Below, piece by piece: positions 8,546-49,410 of a stretch of DNA of 64,000 bases. The stretch is taken from positions 1,698,001 through 1,762,000 of the forward strand of contig NZ_CP090949.1 in NCBI RefSeq assembly GCF_023823125.1, written 5' to 3'. The position numbers and the translations under genes were made by a program. This DNA comes from Erythrobacter aurantius. GTDB lineage: Bacteria; Pseudomonadota; Alphaproteobacteria; Sphingomonadales; Sphingomonadaceae. Each line of letters opens with the position of its first letter. Position 1 is the stretch's first letter. The notes beneath the pieces are model-generated. The model had not been told where the DNA came from and did not search any database. It worked only from the letters and a program-made list of their open reading frames with translations.

Positions 8546-8723
8546 ATGCGCGATTTGTCGCCTTTGTACAAGGGTTTGCGGTGATCTGTGCCATGCGGGG
8601 GACAGGGCTTTCCTACTTGCAGCGCGAACGGCAGGATCAGGTGATGATCATGCGACCGCGAACCCGCACACCAATGCTTATGCGAAAAGTCACAGTCGGA
8701 TGGCTCGCAACAGCCCTCAATCA

Positions 8724-10541: not shown

Positions 10542-10587
10542 CTGGCGCGATCACCCGCATGGGTGCGCGATGCCAATACGCGCTTTC

Positions 10588-11256
10588 CTACTTCCAGGTG
10601 CGCGTGCGATACCACTTGGTGATGACGTATTTGGACCCTTTGATCACCGGGGTTCCGGCGTGCATCGTATCCTCGTTCGGCGTGCCGTCGGGCAGGGCGT
10701 TGTTCCAGATCAGCAGCACGCCGGGCTTCGGCTCGATCTTGATGCCTATGTGGGTGAAATGGGTTTCGCCGCCTTCCTCGACATCGTTGAGGAAGGCCAT
10801 CGTGGTCCAACTGCGCTGTCCGCCGCGTTCGCGTTCGTCCTGCCAATAGCGTTCGGAAGTATAGAACCAGTCGTTGTGCGGCTTGAACTGCTGGCCCGGA
10901 AGGTATCGTTGCCCCTGGATCGCCTCGCCGATGGCAGATGGCAGGCCGAGCAGGTCGTCGATCCTGCGACTGATCCCTTTGACGAAGCTGTCATGCGGAT
11001 CGAGATCGCCCGAATAGGAAGTGCGGAAACCGCTTTCATAGCCGAGCTCGTGCAGCGATGAAGGCCGCGCGGTGTGATCGACCATCAGGCACAGCCGCTC
11101 GCATTCGGCGGCGCTCAGGAAACCGCCGACTGCGAACAGTTCGGCCATGTCGGTATCGATCTTGTAGACGCCGGGATCAGCGGCCAGCCGTTCGCGCACG
11201 GTCTTGCCGACGCGGCGCAGGGCATCCTGATCGGGAATGGTTTCGGTCTTGGACAT
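10588..11256 (-). CDS. Prolyl 4-hydroxylase-type 2-oxoglutarate/Fe(II) oxygenase
   Basis: The protein has 222 residues from the ATG at 11256; a further-upstream start at 11289 is less likely. It is a double-stranded beta-helix dioxygenase of the P4Hc type. The iron facial triad is visible as His and Asp in KPHNDWF (around residues 142-148) and the distal His in MHAGTPV (around residue 201). The 2-oxoglutarate-binding Lys lies in KGSKYVITKWYR near the C-terminus. Such bacterial enzymes hydroxylate prolines in proteins or peptides; the target is unknown. It is convergent with lysK. Confidence 0.88.
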   Translation of the reverse strand: MSKTETIPDQDALRRVGKTVRERLAADPGVYKIDTDMAELFAVGGFLSAAECERLCLMVDHTARPSSLHELGYESGFRTSYSGDLDPHDSFVKGISRRIDDLLGLPSAIGEAIQGQRYLPGQQFKPHNDWFYTSERYWQDERERGGQRSWTTMAFLNDVEEGGETHFTHIGIKIEPKPGVLLIWNNALPDGTPNEDTMHAGTPVIKGSKYVITKWYRTRTWK

Positions 11257-29196: not shown

Positions 29197-30609
29197 TCAG
29201 TGCAGTTTCAGCTTGGGCCGCACCACGCGGTTGACCCGACCAACCAGCATCAGGCCCAGTCCGCGCAGCCAGCCGTGAATGCCGAGCAGGTGCATCCGGT
29301 ATAGCGAGGTGTAGATTAGCCGCGCCATGCGCCCTTCCACCGCCAGCGCGCCGCCGACCAGATTGCCCATCAGGCTGCCAACGGTCGAAAACCGGCTGAG
29401 CGAGATCAGCGAGCCCTTGTCCTCGTAGACAAAGCTCTTGAGCTTCCTGCCCTTCTGCTTGCGTTTGATGTTGGTGAACACTGTTGCCGCCATCTGGTGA
29501 GCGGCCTGTGCGCGCGGAGGGATCGGAACATCCTGTTCAGGCGGGGTGTAGGAAGCGCAATCGCCGAGCGCGAAAATGTCCGGATCGGTCAAAGTCTGCA
29601 TCGTTTCGGTGACGAGGATCTGGTTGCGCGGATTGGTGGCAAGGCCCAGCGTGCCGAGGAATTCGGCGCCCTTCACCCCGGCGGCCCAGACCATCAGATC
29701 GGCTTCGATCACATCGCCCGTTTGCGTCACCATGGCGCGGCGGCGGGCCTCGATCACCTGAGTCTGTTCGCGAACAGTCACGCCCAACTTGTTCAATTCC
29801 TTGCGTGCTGCGCCCGAAAGCTTTTCCGAAAGCGCGGGCAGGATGCGCGGCCCCGCTTCGAGGATGGTGACATCCATGCGGCTTTCGTCGAACACTTCCA
29901 GCCCGTAATGCCGCAGCGCCCCGGCGGCGTTGAACAGTTCTGCGGCCAGCTCCACCCCGGTCGCACCCGCGCCCACGATTGCGACCTTCACCCGCGCATC
30001 GGCACCGGGATCGGCCATCATGGCGCGGCTGACGCGCAAACAGTGGTTCAGCAGCTTGGTGCGGAATTTGTCCGCCTGTTCGCGGCTGTCGAGATAGAGG
30101 CAGTGTTCCGCCACCCCCGGCACGCCGAAATCGTTGGAGATCGATCCGACCGCCAGCACCAGAATGTCATAACGGATGGTGTGCCCGCCGATCAGCTCGT
30201 CGCCATGATCGTCAAGCACCGGGGCAAGGCGGATCGTCTTCGCCTCGCGGTCGATGCTTTCAAGGCTGCCCTGGAAAAACCGGTATCCCCAGCGCGCGCA
30301 ATGCCCGCGATAGCCGACTTCGTCGAGGTTCGCGTCCAGTGATCCGGCGGCGACTTCGTGGAGCAACGGCTTCCAGATGTGCGACAGGTTCTTGTCGACA
30401 AGGATGATGTCGTGCTTCTTGCGCCCGTATTTCGCGCCCAGCTTGCGCACGAGCTCCAACCCGCCCGCACCGCCGCCCACGACAACGATCTGCGTCTTGC
30501 GCGAGCGTTCGGGGCGCGCAGGCGCGGGTACAGCGACTTTTGTCGCCGCACTGCTTTCTGCTGCGCCGGGTTCCGAAATGATTTCGTGCTTCACCCAAGG
30601 CCAACGCAC
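29197..30609 (-). CDS. Type II NADH dehydrogenase (NDH-2)
   Basis: This 470-residue FAD-dependent oxidoreductase passes electrons from NADH to quinone without proton pumping. The FAD-binding motif VVVGGGAGGLELV is around residues 42-54 and the NAD-binding GAGATGVELAAEL around residues 213-225. ALGDCASY supplies the second FAD contact. The C-terminal 90 residues, including amphipathic and hydrophobic segments, should anchor it to the membrane. The start used is GTG; a GTG at 30594 is an alternative. It complements complex I, whose NDUFS4-like subunit lies at 57422. Confidence 0.88.
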   Translation of the reverse strand: MRWPWVKHEIISEPGAAESSAATKVAVPAPARPERSRKTQIVVVGGGAGGLELVRKLGAKYGRKKHDIILVDKNLSHIWKPLLHEVAAGSLDANLDEVGYRGHCARWGYRFFQGSLESIDREAKTIRLAPVLDDHGDELIGGHTIRYDILVLAVGSISNDFGVPGVAEHCLYLDSREQADKFRTKLLNHCLRVSRAMMADPGADARVKVAIVGAGATGVELAAELFNAAGALRHYGLEVFDESRMDVTILEAGPRILPALSEKLSGAARKELNKLGVTVREQTQVIEARRRAMVTQTGDVIEADLMVWAAGVKGAEFLGTLGLATNPRNQILVTETMQTLTDPDIFALGDCASYTPPEQDVPIPPRAQAAHQMAATVFTNIKRKQKGRKLKSFVYEDKGSLISLSRFSTVGSLMGNLVGGALAVEGRMARLIYTSLYRMHLLGIHGWLRGLGLMLVGRVNRVVRPKLKLH

Positions 30610-36831: not shown

Positions 36832-36893
36832 ATAGGTTCGTGTAGGAAAGTTGAAGTGCCAATCAGTCCGGCTTGGCCGGTGTTGGTGCGATC

Positions 36894-45331: not shown

Positions 45332-45429
45332 CGGGTGAATGCCCTTCTGCGGTTGTGATCAGGCTGGTTCGTGTAACCAAGATGGCAATTTTCATTTTCC
45401 TACATCACCGCAGTCAATGCAAGTCCGTT

Positions 45430-46862: not shown

Positions 46863-47411
46863 ATGCTGCGTTATGCCCTGATCTACGGTGGTATCATCGG
46901 TGTGGTCGTGATCGCGCTCATGTCGCTTTCGCTGTTCGGCCTGGGTCCGGATTCGGCTGCTGCGACCGAGCTGGCGGGCTATGCGACCATGCTTGTGGTG
47001 CTCAGCCTGCTGTTTGTCGGGATCAAGCGATACCGTGATGTCGAACACGGCGGGGTGATCAGGTTTTCGCAAGGCGCCGCCGTCGGTATCGGGATCGCAG
47101 TCGTGGCCGGGGTGATTTACGCGATCAGCTGGGAAGTTGTGCTGGCCGTGACCGATTATTCCTTCATCGAAACCTATTCGCAGAGCATGATCGACAGTGT
47201 CCGGGCAAGCGGCCTTGATCCGGCTGCGGAAGCCGCGAGGATTGCCGAGATCAGTCAGAGCATGGAAGCCTATCGCAACCCGCTGTTTCGGCTGCCGATC
47301 ACCTTTATCGAGATTTTCCCGGTCGGGCTGATCGTGGCGCTGATTTCGGCGCTGATCCTGAAGAACCCAAGGGTGCTTCCGGCGCGCGCCGCGACGGGGG
47401 CCGGTGCGTGA
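46863..47411 (+). CDS. DUF4199 domain membrane protein
   Basis: The protein has 182 residues with four hydrophobic segments (about residues 5-25, 38-55, 70-95, 148-168). LFVGIKRYRDVEHGGVIRFSQGAAVG and the C-terminal EIFPVGLIVALISALILKNP fit DUF4199, a family of bacterial inner-membrane proteins of unknown function. A strong AAAGGAG site precedes the start. Its stop lies inside the first copy of the GTGACA repeat array. Confidence 0.82.
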   Translation: MLRYALIYGGIIGVVVIALMSLSLFGLGPDSAAATELAGYATMLVVLSLLFVGIKRYRDVEHGGVIRFSQGAAVGIGIAVVAGVIYAISWEVVLAVTDYSFIETYSQSMIDSVRASGLDPAAEAARIAEISQSMEAYRNPLFRLPITFIEIFPVGLIVALISALILKNPRVLPARAATGAGA

Positions 47412-47546
47412 CATTTCCCGCCCGCAAAAGTGACACTTTGGGGCCTGCAAAAGTGACGCTTTGGCAGGGCGCGGTTACACTTTCCCGGCAAAAGGTGACA
47501 GTTGGCGGCGCAAGGTCACAGTTTGCCGGGCCAAGGGTGACACTTT
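47408..47546. repeat. Seven-copy phased repeat array, core GTGACACTTT
   Basis: Seven imperfect copies start at 47408, 47430, 47453, 47474, 47495, 47515 and 47537. Spacings are 22, 23, 21, 21, 20 and 22 bases. Each copy begins with GTGACAC-TTT or a near variant (GTGACAG, GTGACGC, GTTACAC, GTCACAG). This is followed by a GC-rich part and a run such as GCAAAAG or CAAGG. The array fills the gap between convergent DUF4199 and ABC-F genes. No transposase or palindromic CRISPR-type repeat accompanies it. Confidence 0.88.
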
Positions 47547-47604
47547 CGGATTTTTTCCTCTGGACCGTGTTCCACCTGTTCCAGCCTGTAGGGATTGCGG
47601 GCCG

Positions 47605-49410
47605 TTATCCCTCGACCCGTTCGGCGAGTTCCAGCCAGCGTTCCTCGGCGGCGTCCTTCTCCGCCCGCGCGTTCTCGATGCCTTTGGATATGGTCGCGAA
47701 CCGCTTTGGATCGGAGGTGTAGAGGTCGGGATCGGCAAGGATCGCCTCGCCCTTGGCAATCGCGGCCTCCAGCTCCTCGATCCGGGTGGGGAGCAGCTCG
47801 TAATCGCGCTGGTCCTTGTACGAAAGCTTGTCGGCCTTGGGCGGGGCTGGAGCCGGGGCGGGGGCGGTCGATGCAGTGGCGGCGGGTTTCGCCTTCGATT
47901 GCACCGGCTGGCGGCGGCGCGCTTCCCAATCGGCATAGCCGCCCGCGACGATATCGACCTTGCCCGACCCGTCGAGGCCGAGCGTGATGGTGACGGTCTT
48001 GTCGAGGAAGTCGCGATCGTGGCTGACGATCAGGACGGTGCCTTCGAAATCGGCGATCACCTCCTGCAAGAGGTCAAGCGTTTCGAGGTCGAGATCGTTG
48101 GTCGGCTCGTCCAGCACGAGCAGGTTCGCGGTGCGCGCGAACTCGCGGGCGAGCAGCAGGCGCGAGCGCTCACCGCCCGACATGATGCCGACCTTGGTAT
48201 CGACCAGCTTGGGATCGAACAGGAAGTCCTTGAGGTATGCCTGCACATGCTTTCGCACGCCGCGCACGTCGATCCAGTCGCCGCCTTCGGCAAGGATCTG
48301 GCGCACGGTCGCATCGGGTTCCAGCAGCTTCCTCTGCTGGTCGATCATCACGCCCGAAAGCGTGCGCGCGCGCTGGACGGTGCCGGTATCGGGCTCCAGA
48401 TCGCCGGTCAGCAGTTTGAGCAGCGTCGTCTTGCCCGCGCCATTGGCGCCGACAATGCCGATCCGGTCGCCGTTCTGGATGCGCAGGGTGAACGGCTTGA
48501 TCACCTGCCGCCCGTCGTATGTCTTGGAAATGCCCTCGGCGACGATCACCGACTTGGACTTGAACTCCTCGTCATTGGCGAGCTTGAGCTTGGCCGATCC
48601 GCTGTCCGATATCATCGCGGCGCGGGCGGCGCGCATCTGGTACAGCTTCTCCAGCCGGCCCTGGTTGCGCTTGCGCCGGGCGGTGACACCGCGTTCGAGC
48701 CAGTGCGCCTCGATCTTGAGCTTGGCGTCGAGCTTTTCGGCGGCGCGCGCTTCTTCGGCATACACCTGCTCTTCCCACGCCTCGTACCCGCCAAAGCCGA
48801 CTTCCTTCCGCCGCAAGGTTCCGCGATCGAGCCACAGGGTCGCACGGGTCAGACGTTTCAGGAAGGTACGGTCGTGGCTGATGGTGATGAAGGCGCCCTT
48901 GTACCGGCTCAGCCAGTCCTCCAGCCAGTCGATCGCGCCGAGGTCCAGATGGTTGGTCGGTTCGTCGAGCAGCAACAGGTCCGGGTCTTGTGCCAGCGCG
49001 CGGGCGATGGCGGCCCGGCGGCGCTCGCCCCCGCTGGCGGTGGCCGCTTCGGTGGTCATGTCGATGCCGAGCTGTCCGGCGATGCTCTCCACCTCGTGCC
49101 GCTCGGGCGCGTCGTCCCCGGCAAGCGCAAAGTCCATCAGCGTGGCAAAGGGGGCGAAGTCGGGGTCTTGTTCAAGGAAGACGATGCGCGTGTTCGGCTT
49201 GATCCGGCGTTTGCCCCGGTCGGCTTCGATCCGGTCATCGATCAGCCGCAGCAGCGTAGTCTTGCCCGCGCCATTGCGCCCGATCAGCGCCAGCCTGTCG
49301 CCCGGCAGTACGTGCAGGTCGATCGGTTCCACATCGGGACCGCCGAACAGCCAGCGGCCGCCTTGTTGCAGGCCGAGGCCTTCCCAGGAGAGGATTGGAG
49401 GTTGTGCCAT
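47605..49410 (-). CDS. ABC-F ATPase, Uup-like
   Basis: The protein has 601 residues: two ABC domains with Walker A GRNGAGKTT (about residue 43) and GANGAGKTT (about residue 324), signature segments TASGGERRRAAI and MSGGERSRLLLA, and Walker B DEPTNHLD and DEPTNDLD. A Pro/Ala-rich linker leads to a C-terminal coiled coil (LPTRIEELEAAIAKGEAIL...AEERWLELAERVE), which is the mark of Uup, a factor linked to ribosome function and, in E. coli, to precise transposon excision. It diverges from the SIMPL protein gene. Confidence 0.88.
   Translation of the reverse strand: MAQPPILSWEGLGLQQGGRWLFGGPDVEPIDLHVLPGDRLALIGRNGAGKTTLLRLIDDRIEADRGKRRIKPNTRIVFLEQDPDFAPFATLMDFALAGDDAPERHEVESIAGQLGIDMTTEAATASGGERRRAAIARALAQDPDLLLLDEPTNHLDLGAIDWLEDWLSRYKGAFITISHDRTFLKRLTRATLWLDRGTLRRKEVGFGGYEAWEEQVYAEEARAAEKLDAKLKIEAHWLERGVTARRKRNQGRLEKLYQMRAARAAMISDSGSAKLKLANDEEFKSKSVIVAEGISKTYDGRQVIKPFTLRIQNGDRIGIVGANGAGKTTLLKLLTGDLEPDTGTVQRARTLSGVMIDQQRKLLEPDATVRQILAEGGDWIDVRGVRKHVQAYLKDFLFDPKLVDTKVGIMSGGERSRLLLAREFARTANLLVLDEPTNDLDLETLDLLQEVIADFEGTVLIVSHDRDFLDKTVTITLGLDGSGKVDIVAGGYADWEARRRQPVQSKAKPAATASTAPAPAPAPPKADKLSYKDQRDYELLPTRIEELEAAIAKGEAILADPDLYTSDPKRFATISKGIENARAEKDAAEERWLELAERVEG

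Follow-up and report, generated by a model that had tools for sequence, protein, structure and literature searches.

A dispersed repeat element of Erythrobacter aurantius and the terminase small subunit-like proteins that may read it

Introduction

A stretch of 64,000 nucleotides of the Erythrobacter aurantius genome (contig NZ_CP090949.1, positions 1,698,001 to 1,762,000; hereafter the window) contains seven imperfect copies of a short repeat between a DUF4199 gene and a convergent uup-type gene. What such an array is for, and whether any gene goes with it, is the question raised by this locus. The original prediction, made from the sequence of the window, had found no associated gene and had offered three possibilities: a cooperative protein-binding array, the solo end of an insertion sequence (IS) and a chromosome-organising site. 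Comparison with related genomes suggests that the window array is one copy of a dispersed element with up to three modules: C would consist of a promoter-like TCCTAC box, a TA and an ATG; A of the phased repeats; and B of two direct half-sites of the GTGTnnC type. We consider it rather probable, on sequence comparison, that A and B are recognised by two chromosomal helix-turn-helix proteins, a short and a long one respectively, both related to the terminase small subunit (TerS). The best reading of the array and of B is therefore as putative binding sites of domesticated TerS-like proteins, binding that we infer from the evidence below.

An array family with place-fixed spacing

The element in the window is laid out as follows.

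47408..47546, + strand: module A, seven-copy array of the repeat GTGACACTTT, read from the window sequence
47551..47561, + strand: T-rich stretch from the array to block B, read from the sequence and retained in element alignments
47562..47582, + strand: module B core GGACCGTGTTCCACCTGTTCC, two direct half-sites (G000:C1:1745562-1745582)

Conservation beyond the B core continues to CCTGTAGGG, ending at 47593. The repeats start at 47408, 47430, 47453, 47474, 47495, 47515 and 47537, with start-to-start distances of 22, 23, 21, 21, 20 and 22 bases, as predicted (20-23 bases). Chains of near-copies (at most 2 mismatches, spacing 19-24) reached a length of 7 in the window and 2 on its opposite strand, whereas 40 dinucleotide shuffles of the window gave length 1 in 39 cases and length 2 in one. 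The window array is a real, non-random, conserved site. The claim that all copies face one side of the helix holds approximately; by arithmetic from the spacings, copies 1 and 3 lie about 100 degrees apart at 10.5 bp per turn. An Rfam search gave no family at the gathering score.

A DNA search of the own genome (G000, a single contig of 3,422,084 bases) with the array yielded 35 matches, 14 of them at E<0.01, and the exact 10-mer occurs 31 times versus 2 for the reversed pattern. The search of this genome and its relatives that had been proposed thus revealed arrays in related genomes and, in the own genome, 19 array loci with 125 repeats, window included (at least 18 besides the window). A lone exact copy (L020) was dropped and a partial match (L092) was left out of this count. 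Seven repeats are present in 15 loci, six in two, five in one and three in one. Counted from the 3' end, the mean spacings of the own arrays are 21.3, 20.2, 20.9, 21.3, 22.8 and 22.4, and full arrays share this uneven spacing in near-identical form. Place in the array explains 77% of the spacing variance in G000, 52% in G020, 82% in G012 and 53% in G021, and none of 2000 permutations reached the observed value in any of these four genomes. The predicted cooperative protein-binding array gained support from this place-fixed spacing, and also from a co-occurring TerS-like gene and from the covariation of helix and site in its paralogue.

Most own arrays sit between module C (box and ATG) and block B. 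Three of the elements (L014, L017 and L025) are alike through box, leader and first repeats, as if they were recent duplicates. Array similarity is 0.658 for orthologous pairs versus 0.623 for others (p 0.046) and 0.671 for within-genome pairs, too weak a difference to adopt descent of array sequence locus by locus. Of six genomes compared, site positions round the chromosome are more even than random in G000 and G388, and no such evenness was found in G003, G021, G012 and G185 (for the last, 13 of 14 sites and a rounded chromosome length were used). Replication polarity gave no usable signal, because GC skew over the stretches retrieved was too noisy.

Covariation of the long helix-turn-helix protein with block B

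The longer of two paralogous helix-turn-helix genes was matched at E<1e-28 in 46 of 100 genus genomes, and all 46 loci were fetched. Every locus carries a B-type site, 308-1191 bases past the recognition helix, with 0-2 mismatches (3-5 for the reversed sequence). The site lies inside the open reading frame (ORF) in 25 of the 46 loci and at most 100 nt after it in 19; the two remoter sites are those of G077 (535 nt) and G064 (494 nt, with an in-frame stop in the gene). B is thus found in the long gene or within 100 bases of it in 44 of 46 loci and within 540 nt in all. In G020 and G388, the genes on its two sides were identified by eye as uvrA and argG; here the long gene is meant, not B.

The sequence of the recognition helix goes with the sequence of the site.

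Helix class S[AP]QTAYR[AV]R: B site GTGTTCC
Helix class SR[AQ]H[LC]YRMR: B site GTGTCTC
Helix class SHQT[VA]YR[LM]R: B site GTGTAAC palindrome
Helix class [TA]PMTAYRWR: B site direct GTGTAAC

This rule was drawn by eye on 30 loci, 29 of which agree with it (the exception is G305). Among the 16 loci fetched after the rule, nine were classifiable and all nine agree, giving 38 of 39 classifiable loci in total. Seven loci fall outside the rule: G003, G400, G262 and G071 carry the site of the plainly nearest helix class, G024 has a helix of intermediate type together with a GTGTCTC site, and one helix, paired with a further site, GTGTGTC, is common to G030 and G379. Among the matches listed for single genomes, the first B half-site is GTGTTCC in 25/25 (G000) and 22/22 (G388), GTGTCTC in 18/18 (G003), 21/21 (G394), 11/11 (G064) and 22/27 (G079), and GTGTAAC in 6/6 (G405).

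A tree of uup from 31 genomes, with class labels on 19 (G010 from its uup site alone; G030 treated as a separate class), shows the classes intermingled; G027, for instance, stands beside G070 at 100/100. The tree requires 8 class changes, compared with a shuffled mean of 9.7, and 32 of 200 shuffles were as low. As read from these sequences, helix and site switch between close relatives. Array presence on the same tree needs three changes.

A short helix-turn-helix gene accompanies the arrays

A small helix-turn-helix gene directly precedes the array in L026, L105, L123 and L126, and array-like repeats of other genera in L173 and L203. At E<1e-20 it is present in five of the 100 genus genomes, the same five that have recognised arrays. 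Four of these already had array-type R1 matches among those listed; arrays in the fifth, G406, were forecast from its short gene before the search, which then gave 15 matches (best 7.9e-20). In the remaining 95 genomes, the best array match among those listed was 1.7e-9, in G402, which has B and no array. Weaker matches, their sequence unread, occur in G002 (2.1e-8) and, in part, in G036, G077, G080, G391 and G393, and outside the genus a weak partial match, likewise unread, occurs in G043. Genome-wide, the earlier statement that no gene is associated with the array does not stand.

The helix of the short protein reads SREAAY in G012 versus S/TRQAAY in the four others. At the third position of GT?AC, 112/125 repeats of G000 and 51/65 of G021 have G, 55/63 of G012 have C, and 100/119 of G020 have T or C. 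These figures give a hint that the short-protein helix may vary with the array sequence. In G021, GGACCGTGTAACATGCGGTCC or a near form follows all 16 arrays viewed. A-type repeats were also seen in other genera (L171, L175 (G352), L172 (G176), L173, L176 (G229)), and those of G229 precede blocks built on GTGTCAC.

TerS-like proteins and possible chromosomal packaging sites

Both proteins match phrog_4044, the PHROG profile of the terminase small subunit: all 7 sequences submitted, each linked to an array or to B, gave matches (5.9e-10 to 5.4e-24), and the PHROGs matches of the linked proteins were to TerS only. Pfam and NCBIfam returned nothing above cut-off for them; the weak Pfam matches were to HTH_23 (0.0022, G229 protein), Sf6_terminase (0.028) and a few other helix-turn-helix-type models. 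A relative in Achromobacter phage JWT (2e-4) carries the small-terminase annotation, and the large terminase comes after it; the phage stretch around this gene lacks a GTGTnnC pair of the searched form. The phage collection gave no match to the short protein, and PDB profile searches with A2 and A3 gave no TerS. The best fold match of the structure models (mean pLDDT, the predicted local distance difference test, 77 and 73) was Sf6 TerS, with a predicted lead that is clear for the long protein and narrow for the short one. In two genomes (L315, L317), inspection of the neighbouring ORFs by eye showed no large terminase next to the long gene, and we therefore call the proteins TerS-like homologues, not terminases. 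The own genome has three more TerS-profile matches (L312:9758-10612, L311:10017-10610 and L313:9584-10000, the last weak at 5e-4); that of L312 adjoins what look, by eye, like genes for a cytosine methyltransferase and a Vsr endonuclease.

For comparison with known systems, we drew on published work on TerS, pac and gene-transfer agents (GTAs) (PMC6854486, PMC7947584, PMC11226127, PMC7672466, PMC9611059, PMC9836097). Phage TerS with its pac site resembles the present system in profile, Sf6 TerS fold, helix-turn-helix and the location of the site, within or close to the gene for TerS, as reported for P22. It differs in that here the genes are chromosomal, no large terminase was seen beside the long gene (two genomes), and many chromosomal sites exist, part of them at shared places across species. 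According to the same literature, an adjoining large terminase is usual, not universal (the exception being E217), and a review notes that in vitro measurement of pac reading by TerS has remained difficult. The pseudo-pac sites of P22 in Salmonella are alike in that TerS reads host DNA sites; as described in this literature, these are host sequences resembling the pac of an infecting phage, whereas here conserved sites covary with a resident protein. The RcGTA small terminase gp1 is likewise a chromosomal, phage-derived TerS, but as described it adjoins a large terminase gene and apparently lacks a helix-turn-helix, and the binding sites of GTAs are described as not known.

These likenesses raise the possibility, which we regard as unlikely though worth stating first, of a chromosomal pac-like network in which TerS-like proteins start the packaging of host DNA at fixed points into a GTA-like particle. 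The position of B inside or just after the long gene recalls the P22 pac, reported as a 22-bp sequence in the TerS gene; the other B seen in a recognised own protein gene lies in an endolysin-like gene; and GTA genes are described as conserved, to a varying extent, in around half of Sphingomonadales and two other orders. That no large terminase was seen next to the long gene in the two genomes read, and that RcGTA TerS apparently lacks a helix-turn-helix, speak against such a network, and the promoter-like box and open frame of the element suggest transcription.

As for the endolysin-like gene itself, B lies inside its coding frame at the junction of the N-terminal part and the lysozyme domain (L092, L109, L135) and is accompanied by array repeats in G020 and G021; the own gene matches an endolysin profile.

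Shared places in related genomes

The core GGACNGTGTTCCANNTGTTCCA was found in 26 of 298 family genomes and 16 of 96 genera (none for the reversed control), a looser B core in at least 55 of 100 genus genomes, and a strict exact pair pattern for A in 4 of 298 genomes. Of 61 array loci (G000, G012, G020, G021; window included), 45 share neighbour genes with an array locus of another of these four genomes. In other genera, B cores stand beside the same genes as in the own genome (gene identities by eye); these flanking genes we take to be chpT, ispG, folP, trpC-moaC and others.

At uup, a B-type block is present in the window, G078 (TTC), G073, G079 and G010 (CTC), with a doubtful form in G061, and many of the 30 uup loci inspected have a different gene at that place. 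The window counterpart in G021 is loose, its array lying between different genes, one gene away from uup; in Erythrobacter sp. NAP1, the array is likewise one gene from uup. The original prediction would have taken the array as an IS relic if relatives lacked it at this locus and its sequence matched a transposon end. The array is indeed missing at 29 of the 30 uup loci, the window's own being the one that has it, and four of the 29 have the B-type block; no match to a transposon end was found, without a search aimed at transposases or comparison with an IS database.

Could the element be a non-autonomous mobile repeat, either a miniature inverted-repeat transposable element (MITE) or a mosaic of the BOX-like kind, which spread in copies that were then inherited, the TerS-like link being a by-product? 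Mosaics of C+B and C+A+B, the likeness of L014, L017 and L025 over much of the element, copies within coding sequences and the patchy occurrence are in keeping with it, and weak TCCTAC...GTAGGA ends, candidates for the terminal inverted repeats of a MITE, were noted by eye. However, gene neighbourhoods are common to several species and, by eye, genera, with strongly conserved cores, and where positions are shared, at uup and elsewhere, the core changes from genome to genome together with the TerS-like helix. We therefore give this explanation a still lower probability than pac-like packaging. Repetitive extragenic palindromes with their associated transposases (REP/RAYT) and BOX elements also form dispersed mosaic copies, the former with a linked protein gene; here, the linked protein is TerS-like and some of the sites occupy the same position in different species. 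REP/RAYT itself was rejected, the linked proteins being TerS-like and not a tyrosine (HUH) transposase.

Module C and the open leader frame

Among 28 own B sites examined (the diverged B of L014 was missed by the block finder), 25 have a [TG]TCCTAC box 74-280 bases upstream, compared with 0/28 downstream and 1/28 on the other strand. A TCCTAC-type box precedes B in 20 of 29 loci of other genera (control 1/29). After the own boxes, TA follows at gap 15 or 16 in 16/25, against a mean of 1.8 and a maximum of 8 in shuffles. An ATG comes at gap 27-29 in 18/25, and the box plus full TAnnnT occurs in only 8/25. The window contains five KTCCTACW boxes, at 8610-8617 (+), 10585-10592 (+), 29547-29554 (-), 36841-36848 (-) and 45397-45404 (+), versus 0.81 expected in shuffles, none with the TAnnnT spacing; they may possibly be like promoters without B.

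The frame from the module C ATG is open through B in 20/20 testable own elements (three others have no box and five no ATG), and the other frames in 2/20 and 5/20. The corresponding counts are 12/12 in G020, 3/3 in G012 and 9/10 in G021 (6 of 18, 7 of 10 and 6 of 16 elements, respectively, fell outside the test), with 0 and 5 of 25 for the other frames. Across the four genomes, 44 of 45 testable elements keep the frame open over both A and B. For other genera the count is 18/19, but the other frames are open in 9/19 and 13/19, hence this set tells little. In several elements, the leader stop overlaps the downstream start codon.

This open frame and overlap would also suit a translated leader or attenuator, in which a leader peptide or leader RNA is the target of selection, the periodicity of the DNA being secondary. 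We judge this improbable, more so than a mobile repeat, because across ten own arrays the repeat persists unchanged in whichever of the three frames it falls, and is altered where GTGAC would create a stop: such positions carry GCGAC (7) or GTTAC (2), 9/9, whereas the remaining repeat positions have GTGAC in 47/52. In addition, the spacings are not multiples of three, and the encoded peptide varies with the B class.

Under our preferred reading of A and B as TerS-like binding sites, the short protein would act on A and the long protein on B, several short-protein molecules aligning along the phased A sites beside a complex on B. These complexes might gate transcription from C into a gene that often starts right after B. 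Gating is our first guess because the array lies in an open leader frame in most testable copies, and we put its chance of being right at about one in three.

The remaining explanations fare less well. An origin as the solo end of an insertion sequence, IS21-like or other, is very improbable: the resemblance of the multiple short direct repeats to such ends stands against the fixed layout of full own arrays, the sister elements at shared positions in several species and the lack of any plasmid match, so that the suggested IS21-type end gained nothing. The suggested chromosome-organising role neither gained nor lost support. A plain tandem repeat or clustered regularly interspaced short palindromic repeats (CRISPR) were rejected, since the 10-base repeats are imperfect and their spacing is fixed by place over 19 own loci, in line with the earlier remark that the array is unlike CRISPR.

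The window copy and its surroundings

Two genes flank the window copy.

46863..47411, + strand: DUF4199 gene, TGA stop inside repeat 1
47605..49410, - strand: uup-type ABC ATPase gene, convergent with the element

The DUF4199 stop (47409-47411) falls within the first repeat, as had been noted, at the place where other copies carry leader and module C, and the uup stop (47605-47607) is separated from the last repeat by the 58 bases reported earlier. The window copy is without the module C box; lacking C and pointing towards uup, it possibly binds protein without gene regulation. Among named genomes, the DUF4199 protein has relatives at 29 loci, spread patchily across Alphaproteobacteria, Bacteroidota and Acidobacteria, a pattern that suggests transfer.

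Implications

We found no published description of this repeat or TerS-like system among work on related repeats, GTA packaging sites and domesticated TerS, and six A and B sequence strings gave no match in the literature text searched. The system seems to comprise a resident, phage-derived TerS-like family, each member with many conserved cognate sites, helix and sites switching together; that these sites are pac-like starts of host-chromosome packaging is conceivable, at the low probability given above. With 46 pairs of protein and site available from nature, falling into at least five classes of specificity, and with up to some thirty further sites per genome among the matches listed, the system offers a directly testable recognition code. 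If confirmed, the in-place switching of many sites would be a striking case of protein-site coevolution, and a phage packaging specificity factor would have been retained as a chromosome-wide binding system in this bacterial family.
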